33,100 nt of DNA from Methanohalophilus profundi (GTDB taxonomy: Archaea; Halobacteriota; Methanosarcinia; Methanosarcinales; Methanosarcinaceae), in the NCBI RefSeq assembly GCF_004137855.1, contig NZ_QBKB01000002.1:258981-292080 (forward strand). The letters run 5' to 3'. The notes below the pieces were generated by a model, which was given only the letters and a program-made list of their open reading frames with translations, did not search any database and had not been told where the DNA came from. The position numbers were made by a program, and so were the translations under genes. Each line of letters starts with the position of its first letter. Within the stretch, counting starts at the first letter, position 1. Shown here one piece after another: positions 28,084 to 31,477 of this stretch.

Positions 28084-28734
28084 TCAATACTCCCTTTCCC
28101 CAAATATAGCCGAACCCACACGTACCATTGTAGCTCCTTCCTCGATGGCTACCATGTAGTCATTGGACATTCCCATTGACAATTCCTGAATATCGATATT
28201 GCCGCGGTTTTCCTGTTTCATTTCATCAAAACGGGCTTTCATCTTTTGGAAATAGGGACGGGTTTGTTCGGCAGGGACAAAAGGAGGGATGCACATCAGG
28301 CCTTCCACGCGGATATTTTGAAGGGAGCGGATTTCGTTTATCACTTCTTTGATACTGTCCAGCCTGAAACCATTTTTCTGTGGCTCATTGCCTATGTTTA
28401 CCTGAAGGAAGACCCTTTGTACCTTATCGATATCCCCGGCTCTACCATCAATATTATTTACTACTTTCAGGGAGTCGACTGACTGGATAACATCAAAAAA
28501 CTCAACAGCCTTTTTGACTTTATTTGTCTGCAGGTGACCTATCAAATGTGTCTCACAGGGCAGGATTTCCTCGCGTTTATCTTCATATTCCTGAACCCGG
28601 TTCTCTCCGATTATGGCAGCCCCGGCCTGGATGGCTTCGTTTATCCTTTCAGGTTCAATAGTCTTGGTGACACAAATTAGTGTCCTGTCACCGATTTCCT
28701 CGAAAATTTTCTTGATATTCTCATCGACTGGCAT
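28084..28734 (-). CDS. YggS-family pyridoxal phosphate protein (PLP homeostasis)
   Basis: 216 residues. A single-domain PLP-binding TIM barrel like the N-terminal part of alanine racemase; the family balances PLP and amino/keto acid pools and has no proven enzyme activity. K24 in CVTKT is the PLP lysine. Other signatures are IIGENRVQEYEDK, HLIGHLQTNKVKK, LMCIPPF and LSMGMSNDYMVAIEEGATMVRVG, then GSAIFGERE. Start ATG 28734 (MPVDENI). It is convergent with tRNA-Val, ending nine bases from it. Confidence 0.93.
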   Translation of the reverse strand: MPVDENIKKIFEEIGDRTLICVTKTIEPERINEAIQAGAAIIGENRVQEYEDKREEILPCETHLIGHLQTNKVKKAVEFFDVIQSVDSLKVVNNIDGRAGDIDKVQRVFLQVNIGNEPQKNGFRLDSIKEVINEIRSLQNIRVEGLMCIPPFVPAEQTRPYFQKMKARFDEMKQENRGNIDIQELSMGMSNDYMVAIEEGATMVRVGSAIFGEREY

Positions 28735-28752
28735 TGATGTCCCCGTGATGCT

Positions 28753-28980
28753 TTATTCAAAATTTGGTCTATTTAAATCATTCTGATTGTGAATTTTATT
28801 TTCATTTTCCTTATATTTCTCTTCAATTCCATCGAGGTTTGGGACTGAATAAGTATAGAAAGCATCCGTGGCAGATGCCGTTAACCTGAATTTGCTTATG
28901 ATTTCGCAACCTTCAACCCCAATTATCCTATAAACCTGCCGCAAAGTTAGGGAGTGAATGGAAGGCTTTTTGCAGTACAT
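28753..28980 (-). CDS. Small open frame upstream of the YggS-like gene, doubtful
   Basis: 75 codons, ending 18 bases before the YggS-like start. The first half (MYCKKPSIHSLTLRQVYRII and FRLTASATDAFYTYSV) has a plausible amino acid mix, the tail is charged and Asn-rich. No ribosome binding site or family is recognised. It may be a real leader gene, the relic of a longer one, or chance. Confidence 0.3.
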   Translation of the reverse strand: MYCKKPSIHSLTLRQVYRIIGVEGCEIISKFRLTASATDAFYTYSVPNLDGIEEKYKENENKIHNQNDLNRPNFE

Positions 28981-29244
28981 TAGTCACTGCCCGGCCCCTG
29001 ATGCGGTGAGCTATTAAATAGATCAAAAATTGCTGAATCTTTCATATGTAGCAATAAGAACAATCAATAAAATTTTTATACTCTACTTCTTCTTTTTGAA
29101 AGTACTTTGATAAACCCACAGGAAAAATTATCATTCATTAGTACCAACATATTTTCGGCATATAATTATCAGACTTGCAGCTATTGACAATTTGAGGAGG
29201 AGATGTTTGCCTCTTATGCAAGGGAAATTTTACGGAGGAAGGCA

Positions 29245-30036
29245 ATGAAGGATGCATTAAAAAAACTGAGAGAAACAAAACCATTGGTTCATCATATTAC
29301 CAACTGGGTTACAATTTATGACTGTGCAAATATAACAAGGGCTTTTGGTGCTCTTCCCGTAATGGCTCATGCTGTAGAAGAATGTGCTGATATGACCAAG
29401 ATTTCCTCTGCCCTTGTACTTAATATCGGAACCCTGACGTCTGAACTTATTGAATCCATGATAATTTCCGCAAAGGCTGCAAACGAAAAACAAATTCCTG
29501 TGGTACTCGATATAGTAGGGGTAGGGGCAACCCAATTCAGAAACCAAATGACTGCAAAGATCCTTGATAGTGCTCATGTTGATATCATTAAAGGTAACTA
29601 TTCTGAGATTGCAAAACTGGCAGGTGAAAATGCCCGTACAAAAGGAGTTGAAGCAACTTCTATCAATGCTGATCCCTTCTGGCTTGCAAAGAATTTGGCC
29701 ATCTCAAGATCATGTACTGTTGTGATGACCGGCAGAGAAGATATAGTCAGTGATGGTTCAAGGATATTTTCCATTAAAAATGGTCATGCAGAAATGGGTT
29801 CAATTGTGGGCACCGGTTGCATGGCTGCTTCAATAATTGGTTCATTTGCAGCCCGGAACGATGATTTCGTTGATGCAGCAATAGATGCTTTGTCTTTCTT
29901 TGGGGTTGCCGGGGAACTTGCGGCGGCTAAGTCAACCGGCAGCGGTAGTTTCAAGATGCATTTATATGATGAAGTATCCGGGCTTACTGATGAAAAAGCG
30001 GAACCTATGACTAATGTTGAGAGTATTGAAGGCTGA
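29245..30036 (+). CDS. thiM: Hydroxyethylthiazole kinase
   Basis: 263 residues. Phosphorylates 4-methyl-5-(2-hydroxyethyl)thiazole with ATP for thiamine salvage. ATG 29245 is chosen since GGAGGA at 29234-29239 precedes it by five bases; ATG 29203 in the same frame has its G-rich stretch too close. The family features are [59 protein letters not shown] and the anion-hole motif VGTGCMAAS with C192. It is followed 11 bases later by thiE, so the two form one operon that joins salvaged thiazole to the pyrimidine moiety. A TATA-like CATATAATTA lies near 29158-29167. No TPP riboswitch was seen in the leader. Confidence 0.93.
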
Positions 30037-30047
30037 ATTATAGATTT

Positions 30048-30740
30048 ATGAGGATTCCATTTATGCCATTCTGGAAATCTTTGCTTAATGATATCGATTT
30101 CTATCTTGTGACAGATTCCGGCTTATCCAGGAAAGGTACATTGTCCGATGTGAAATGTGCAGTTGCGGCCGGGTGTAAGATTGTTCAGTATCGTGAGAAA
30201 GACAAGACTACAAAAGAGATGATCGAAGAGGCTATCCTGATCAGGAGAATATGTGGGGATAATGCCATCTTTCTGGTAAATGACCGTATCGATGTAGCCC
30301 TGGCTGCAGGAGCTGATGGAGTGCATATCGGACAGGACGATATGCCGATTGATCTGGCACGAAATATTCTGGGTGAAAATAAGATAATCGGCCTTACAGT
30401 CCATGATACAGATGAAGCAATCGAGGCAGAAAGATAGGGGGCTGATTACGTAGGTTTCAGTCCTGTTTTTGACACTACTACCAAAAAAGATGCAGGTATG
30501 GGTGTTGGACCTGAAAGGATTCAGGCGATGAAAACTATAATTGATATTCCGATTGTTGCCATAGGAGGCATCAATAAAGACAACTGTGTTTCAGTTGTTG
30601 AAAACGGGGCCGATAGTCTGGTTGCTATTTCAGCAATCGTTTGCAGTGATAATGTCAGGAGAGAAACAGAGGATTTCATTGCAACTATCCGCAAAATAAA
30701 GCAAAATCCCCTAAACAGAGTTAATGTAAAGGGAAAATGA
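30048..30740 (+). CDS. thiE: Thiamine phosphate synthase with an in-frame TAG at codon 130
   Basis: Couples hydroxymethylpyrimidine diphosphate with thiazole phosphate to make thiamine phosphate. The frame from ATG 30048 reads [53 protein letters not shown] and [16 protein letters not shown], then TAG at 30435-30437. The very same frame goes on with [33 protein letters not shown] and [11 protein letters not shown] to TGA 30738-30740. With TAG read as one residue the length is 230, normal for ThiE. No frameshift is needed. In Bacillus ThiE the matching residue is an Asp in AEEDGADYVG; the position varies in the family, so pyrrolysine there could be tolerated. If TAG stops translation the product lacks part of the active site. 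Confidence 0.9.
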
Positions 30741-30796
30741 AATTGGATTATATGGAATCCTCAAAGGCATATTTTGCGAATAATAGAGCACCTTGT

Positions 30797-31282
30797 TCAT
30801 CTATCCAGTAACATCCTTCTTTCAATTGGATAATGGGCTGTAGCTGCGTTTATAAGTTCTTCGGCTGTACTTTCTTTAAAAGAGTGGACTTCAACCCGTA
30901 CACCAATAGCTTTCAGGTGGTTTATCAGATCGACAAAATCGCCATCTCCACTAACAAGCACAATGGTATCTACTTTGGGTGCAATTGAAATCGCATCAAT
31001 TGCGATCCCCATGTCCCAATCTCCTTTGGTGGAACCATCAGGTCTTACCTTCAGGGCCTTGCTTTTTATTTCCCATCCAATTGAACCAATAAAACTCTTA
31101 AAACCTGACTGGTCGATATCCGGTGCTTCGACAAGATAGGCTATTGCCCTTGTCAATTTTCTTTCCATTACGACAGCACGTAAAAGTTTTTCGTAATCAA
31201 GTCTTCCGTAATGGATATTTCTGGCAGAATAAAACATATTCTGCACGTCTACAAAAACCGCTAATTTTTGGCTGCTAAACAT
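30797..31282 (-). CDS. NYN-domain (LabA/DUF88-like) nuclease
   Basis: 161 residues. A PIN-like metal-dependent RNase fold. The conserved acidic residues are visible in VFVDVQNMFYSA (D12, N15), KGDWDMGIAIDAI and VLVSGDGDFVDLI. GVRVEVHSFKESTAEELINAA is the usual C-terminal part. Single gene on the minus strand, with no partner to suggest a target; a role in RNA turnover is inferred from the family. ATG at 31282. Confidence 0.88.
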   Translation of the reverse strand: MFSSQKLAVFVDVQNMFYSARNIHYGRLDYEKLLRAVVMERKLTRAIAYLVEAPDIDQSGFKSFIGSIGWEIKSKALKVRPDGSTKGDWDMGIAIDAISIAPKVDTIVLVSGDGDFVDLINHLKAIGVRVEVHSFKESTAEELINAATAHYPIERRMLLDR

Positions 31283-31477
31283 GGATTACCTATAATATTT
31301 TATGTCTAATTATTTATTATCTTTCATTCTGTTTTGGAGTAATATTTTTACTGTTTTTTATGTTTCATAATATAAAAAACAAAGGTTCAAATTTATTTGT
31401 TGTGTACCATTGGTTATTACCTGTAGTTCTGAAGATTTATACATATAGACGACTGTATAATAGATTAAGGATAAAAC

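Follow-up and report, generated by a model that had tools for sequence, protein, structure and literature searches.

Pyrrolysine is a derivative of lysine. A 2025 study is said to have described archaea with a 'Pyl code' in which all TAG codons are pyrrolysine; TAG would be a routine sense codon there, as is proposed here for Methanohalophilus. In the methylamine methyltransferases encoded by mtmB, mtbB and mttB, UAG is decoded as pyrrolysine by the same machinery, and their TAG is conserved and functional, whereas the TAG in the gene of thiamine phosphate synthase (ThiE) described here is private to one genome and lies in a predicted loop. In the genus Methanohalophilus, a pyrrolysine tRNA was reported in a comparative study (PMC6491703), and pyrrolysine was measured by mass spectrometry at residue 334 of M. 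portucalensis MttB (PMC4928046).

The tRNA-His guanylyltransferase Thg1 of Methanosarcina acetivorans is, like ThiE, an ordinary enzyme with a lone in-frame amber codon that is confined to one species, and its pyrrolysine is reported to have arisen in one species and not to be essential (PMC2933860). The ThiE candidate differs in that it is known solely from an error-laden sequence, with pyrrolysine as a prediction. In 'Candidatus Methanomethylophilus alvus', for which pyrrolysine proteins have also been predicted, TAG stop use is likewise low (1.6%) and in-frame TAG occurs in ordinary genes, half of which are reported to have relatives without TAG (PMC4153887). That organism belongs to a different order, and in Methanohalophilus TAG closes 3 of 435 shared gene ends. 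The sequence-only reading of the thiE locus had stated that few pyrrolysine proteins are described beyond the methyltransferases. This holds for proteins shown experimentally, but dozens have been predicted (PMC4153887, PMC1242214).

The window, that is, the whole stretch of 33,100 nucleotides analyzed here, corresponds to G000:C2:258981-292080 in the genome of Methanohalophilus profundi (G000; 1.83 Mb, 4 contigs, 89.98% complete). The thiE frame runs on the plus strand from the ATG at 30048 to the TGA that ends at 30740, and codon 130 of its 230 codons is TAG (30435-30437). Inspection of the frame revealed no defect besides this codon. When TAG was read as Lys, TMP-TENI (PF02581) covered the whole of ThiE (profile positions 1-180 of 180; 202.3 bits; cut-off, 27) and the ThiE model TIGR00693 matched with 195.4 bits (cut-off, 145.1). 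Frame and profile matches agree with the earlier description of a frame broken by one TAG only, with family sequence on both sides. In the genome profile search, thiE was the sole ThiE of G000 above the family cut-off, the runner-up (19.5 bits) falling under it. The AlphaFold model of ThiE with Lys at position 130 had a mean pLDDT of 88.8, and its best match in the PDB was 1xi3 (TM 0.83/0.94). By curated-model match and predicted fold, the gene at 30048-30740 qualifies as ThiE. On its 5' side it is adjoined by thiM, the hydroxyethylthiazole kinase gene (29203..30036, plus strand), an open frame of 277 codons that matched PF02110 with 270.5 bits and NF006830 with 334.2 bits (cut-off, 180), and a gene for an NYN-domain protein (30797..31282, minus strand; PF01936, 122.2 bits) is convergent with it.

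To compare codon 130 among relatives, we used eight Methanohalophilus genomes (G000 to G007, G000 being the genome studied), of which we take G001 to be M. euhalobius WG-1MB, G002 M. halophilus, G004 M. mahii, G005 M. portucalensis FDF-1 and G006 Methanohalophilus sp. RSK. ThiE is present in seven of the eight; the ThiE search of these genomes found none in G003, where there was only a weak match of 35% identity. The six sister thiE genes are free of stops, and codon 130 is AAA in G002, G004, G005, G006 and G007 and AAG in G001 (M. euhalobius). The alignment of sister strains at this codon, which had been proposed as a check, gives Lys in all six sisters with ThiE. TAG is one base apart from AAG and two from AAA. 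Both the TAG and the sister codons are direct observations, and the TAG is not conserved among ThiE orthologues but private to G000 (one of the seven genus ThiE genes). Among the 79 loci found by protein search (including the G001 and G006 genes again), no ThiE locus aligning at codon 130 has a stop there. In relatives with at least 60% identity the position holds S, K, N, A, M, L, D, Q or R, while the GADY directly after it is nearly constant; P. furiosus ThiE (1xi3) likewise has Lys at the matching site. In the AlphaFold model, residue 130 is the first loop residue after helix 121-129 and ahead of strand 134-137, and in TIM barrels the helix-to-strand loops sit on the face opposite the active site. 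Alignment and model indicate that codon 130 is a variable loop site. Besides the TAG, thiE of G000 has 5 nonsynonymous and 6 synonymous changes of its own.

The pyrrolysine machinery is found in the genome. In all eight genus genomes pylS scored above the cut-off, and in G000 ARAGORN placed tRNA-Pyl adjoining pylS; tRNA-Pyl and PylS are thus observed directly. They are followed by three open frames in the order expected for pylB, pylC and pylD, which we presume them to be from this order and their sequence. The search for pylTSBCD was positive for pylS and pylT, with pylB, pylC and pylD as presumed genes, and the objection that the genome might lack pylS or pylT fails, because both occur in G000. 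The G000 frames which we take to be mtbB and mttB, judging from length and sequence, carry TAG, and one mttB was also supported by PF06253. The frame taken as mtmB (G000:C2:441843-442916) holds a run of 100 N. At L119:9320-9442 (G000:C2:829320), pylB ends with TAG one base ahead of the pylC start, and a 39-codon in-frame extension past this TAG is kept in G000, G004, G005 and G006; in other Methanosarcinaceae, TAG is known as the pylB stop (PMC2933860).

We then compared gene ends. Among 435 gene pairs with common ends in G000 and G005, 432 close with TGA or TAA in both genomes. TAG is seen in the other three: at mtbB, where it is the pyrrolysine codon, at pylB in both genomes, and in a G000 gene that has an N close to its end. 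Between G004 and G005, the 117 pairs include one TAG end, on the G005 side. Between G004 and G000, TAG was found in three of 114 pairs, two of which are 119-codon ORFs (G004:C1 562148-562507 and 696710-697069), each 100% identical to a G000 ORF and perhaps part of a mobile element. Among the ORFs flanking other ThiE loci, TAG is the stop of 1 of 65 (Methanosarcina), 3 of 61 (Methanolobus) and 5 of 53 (all others). The published share of TAG among stops is 4-5% in Methanosarcina, next to the figure given above for 'Ca. M. alvus' (PMC4153887). Since TAG ends so few of the compared genes, UAG is nearly without stop duty in Methanohalophilus, and in good part also in its relatives.

The quality of the G000 sequence bears on how the TAG is read. 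In the whole-gene comparison, which left out matches with <80% identity, genes with <70% coverage and a further 13 and 16 genes with non-coding-looking differences, 54 of 502 G000 genes compared with G005 were frameshifted (60 frameshifts in total). In the reverse comparison, 7 of 526 G005 genes were frameshifted, and between G004 and G005 the numbers were 0 of 112 genes and, in the other direction, 1 of 113. All 19 inspected breaks in G000 were 1-base indels, many of them in homopolymers. We annotated 20 frameshifted genes (for 4 of them, nothing matched at the chosen thresholds), and the set includes MCM helicase, primase PriL, HdrA2, PAN, formylmethanofuran dehydrogenase B and aspartate kinase. 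A methanogen can hardly do without MCM, PriL, HdrA2 and formylmethanofuran dehydrogenase B, and the frameshifts in G000 are most simply read as errors. In 74 intact genes polarized by G004, nonsynonymous substitutions of their own numbered 336 for G000 and 244 for G005, and synonymous ones were about equal at 1051 and 1088, a pattern compatible both with base errors and with their absence. Runs of N and isolated N bases also occur in the assembly, one of them directly past the window. A substitution error in thiE is thus possible, because the G000 sequence is rich in errors. In G000:C2 280001-1480000 about 1 in 9 compared genes is frameshifted relative to G005; since replication genes are among them, other findings of broken genes in G000 deserve distrust. 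The cofD gene, stop-free in all seven sisters, has a broken frame in G000 (G000:C2:1396782-1397620) and also contains a TAG in frame.

Interior stops were counted in two ways. Random single substitutions into G005 genes gave an expected TAG share among stops of 0.33-0.38. The whole-gene comparison with G005 found 2 TAG, 6 TAA and 1 TGA inside G000 genes, showing no TAG excess; the two TAGs are those of thiE and of malic enzyme Lys199. Of the seven TAA/TGA stops, five lie no more than 60 codons from the ORF start, and so may precede the true start, and one belongs to a gene that is frameshifted twice. The malic enzyme TAG (codon 199, G000:C2:660335, L210) is AAA in G001, G005 and G006 and AAG in G004, a second Lys-to-TAG change in G000 of the same kind as that in thiE; two of the eight genomes have no match to this gene. 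A second scan covered 1.2 Mb of G000 and collected all stops with 60-codon coding-like frames on both sides, giving 122 candidates. Sisters settled 54 of them: 49 have a stop in the sister too (46 TAA/TGA, and 3 TAG in mtbB-like genes), and the remaining 5 are a sense codon in the sister (2 TAG and 3 TAA). The other 68 comprised 12 TAG and 56 TAA/TGA candidates, of which 10 TAG (two mttB being left out) and a random 30 TAA/TGA were examined with Pfam for a single domain match across the stop with at least 15 residues on each side. Such a match spanned the stop in 7 of 10 TAG candidates versus 0 of 30 TAA/TGA candidates, while a Pfam match of any kind was present in 9 of 10 and 22 of 30, respectively. 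These further in-frame TAGs are observed directly. The interior stops of G000 in the tested set total 9 TAG versus 3 TAA (p 0.003-0.01 against a share of 0.33-0.38). With 40-codon flanks, two further non-TAG stops were added (9 TAG versus 5 others, p 0.015-0.04), and if two more among the 26 remaining TAA/TGA candidates were counted (9 of 16), p would be 0.04-0.10. The TAG excess in G000 depends on the counting method. It favors the view that TAG is tolerated rather than simply erroneous, though for thiE itself it is no proof. A base-calling artifact at a methylation motif was considered and set aside, as no obvious motif is common to the 12 TAG contexts examined.

The cleaner sisters show no TAG excess in their smaller counts. 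The sister-settled interior stops were 1 TAG and 2 TGA in G005 and 1 TAG, 1 TAA and 1 TGA in G004, which besides has the TAG of a photolyase-related protein and a TAA at codon 16 of a gene. Since the TAA/TGA controls there are three cases only, a TAG excess is not claimed for either genome. In the whole-gene comparison, no interior TAG was found among 526 G005 genes. A single Pfam match enclosed the TAG for 3 of the 5 remaining candidates in G005 (PAS, an integrase below the cut-off, and DUF7289) and for neither of the two in G004; 3 of 12 TAA/TGA candidates of G004 were tried with Pfam and gave no match. In G004, the DUF255 thioredoxin protein (L189, G004:C1:570411) has a 681-codon frame with one TAG (Q in G005), and the photolyase-related protein (G004:C1:691230) has 501 codons with one TAG (W in G005), both frames being otherwise open. 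Other members of the genus lack these two genes or have damaged copies: the photolyase-related protein has no match in 5 of 8 genomes, and in G000 and G001 only a remnant of the DUF255 gene is left. The residues replaced in G004, Q and W, led us to reject the idea that sense-to-TAG changes affect Lys so that a Lys-like residue is selected. A TAG at position 1616902 of G005 was discarded as evidence, its ORF looking antisense. An ORF at G005:C1:1302588, which by a motif looks like DNA polymerase IV, has an interior TAG; in G000 this site is Q and is preceded, at a distance of a few codons, by a TAA.

It was proposed that thiamine synthesis may depend on the pyrrolysine system or be tuned by read-through. 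Thiamine synthesis need not depend on pyrrolysine, because ThiN, the alternative, second thiamine phosphate synthase domain, is open in all eight genus genomes; together with the failure to find ThiE in G003, this speaks against dependence. Tuning fares no better: of seven ThiE genes one has the TAG, the Rfam search found no element up to E 1 within 28500-31400 and no PYLIS-type structure, and UAG decoding is in any case reported not to require PYLIS (PMC2933860). From 30430 onward, a stretch of 101 bases folds somewhat better than its shuffled versions (z -2.32; 5 of 200 as good), and with Rfam empty, a PYLIS-like signal in thiE was rejected. Since a total loss of ThiE would be tolerable too with ThiN open throughout, there is no case for dependence or tuning. 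The remaining proposal, that full-length ThiE is made by reading UAG, stays plausible, given the machinery and the TAG excess in G000.

The reading we favor, at about even odds, is that the TAG is a real base and represents a near-neutral replacement of Lys by pyrrolysine, with full-length protein being made. A recent AAG-to-TAG change would have struck a variable surface loop of ThiE, and UAG, nearly without a stop role in the genus, would be read by tRNA-Pyl so that pyrrolysine is inserted. The outcome would be ThiE of full length, perhaps accompanied by a truncated form. The change would be near neutral and need no special signal, as the loop would lie on the barrel face opposite the catalytic one and ThiN would yield the same product. 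On the other hand, the codon may be a sequencing or assembly error in an ordinary gene whose true codon is AAG (or AAA) for Lys. This main rival is possible, but we hold it to be doubtful. With 54 of 502 genes frameshifted, single bases in G000 are suspect; the 1-base indels, many in homopolymers, hit genes as hardly dispensable as MCM, PriL, HdrA2 and formylmethanofuran dehydrogenase B; cofD is broken and has a TAG in G000 alone; the assembly has N runs; and the M. euhalobius AAG is a single base from TAG. However, the visible errors are mainly indels, and substitution errors would predict about two TAA/TGA per TAG, while the tested interior stops were 9 TAG to 3-5 TAA/TGA. The TAG contexts share no obvious motif, and the rest of thiE is free of defects.

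If the base is real, the TAG could also act as a nonsense mutation, leaving a 129-residue fragment, with ThiN substituting for the lost ThiE. ThiN in all eight genomes and the G003 result indicate that the genus tolerates such a loss, and the other TAG genes (malic enzyme, photolyase-related protein and DUF255) look dispensable. We nevertheless consider this unlikely: thiE has no second defect and few changes of its own, and with tRNA-Pyl and PylS present, complete loss is improbable, an introduced reporter UAG in M. acetivorans being reported as decoded at 20-30%, with most product terminated at the amber codon (PMC2933860). Least probable is a programmed read-through in which the thiE UAG couples thiamine synthesis to growth on methylamine. 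The folding of the bases from 30430 would fit it, as would Acetohalobium, where the meaning of UAG is reported to vary with substrate (PMC4153887, PMC8211752), but the TAG in a single ThiE gene, the empty Rfam search and the ThiN bypass all stand against it. Returning to the replacement of Lys by pyrrolysine, ThiE is probably still produced despite the TAG, because in this genus UAG is decoded as pyrrolysine and very seldom terminates a gene, although a base error is possible given the poor sequence. We infer that the base is correct, that pyrrolysine is inserted and that ThiE is functional; if the base is right, a working ThiE with pyrrolysine at position 130, made at a fraction of the normal yield, is the likeliest outcome.

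An error-laden genome can mimic recoding, and the thiE case illustrates this equally well. If the pyrrolysine reading is true, gene callers would split such TAG-bearing genes in two, and ThiE would be a further ordinary enzyme that gained pyrrolysine by drift. Somewhat more tentatively, UAG may have become a nearly dedicated pyrrolysine codon in the genus Methanohalophilus, its stop role all but dropped, with pyrrolysine drifting into ordinary enzymes (ThiE, malic enzyme, a metallo-beta-lactamase-fold protein, DUF255 and the photolyase-related protein), so that part of everyday metabolism would be built with 21 amino acids. Cultured Methanohalophilus, in which mass spectrometry has found pyrrolysine in a methyltransferase (PMC4928046), would then be well suited to probing the extent to which a stop codon may turn into a sense codon.
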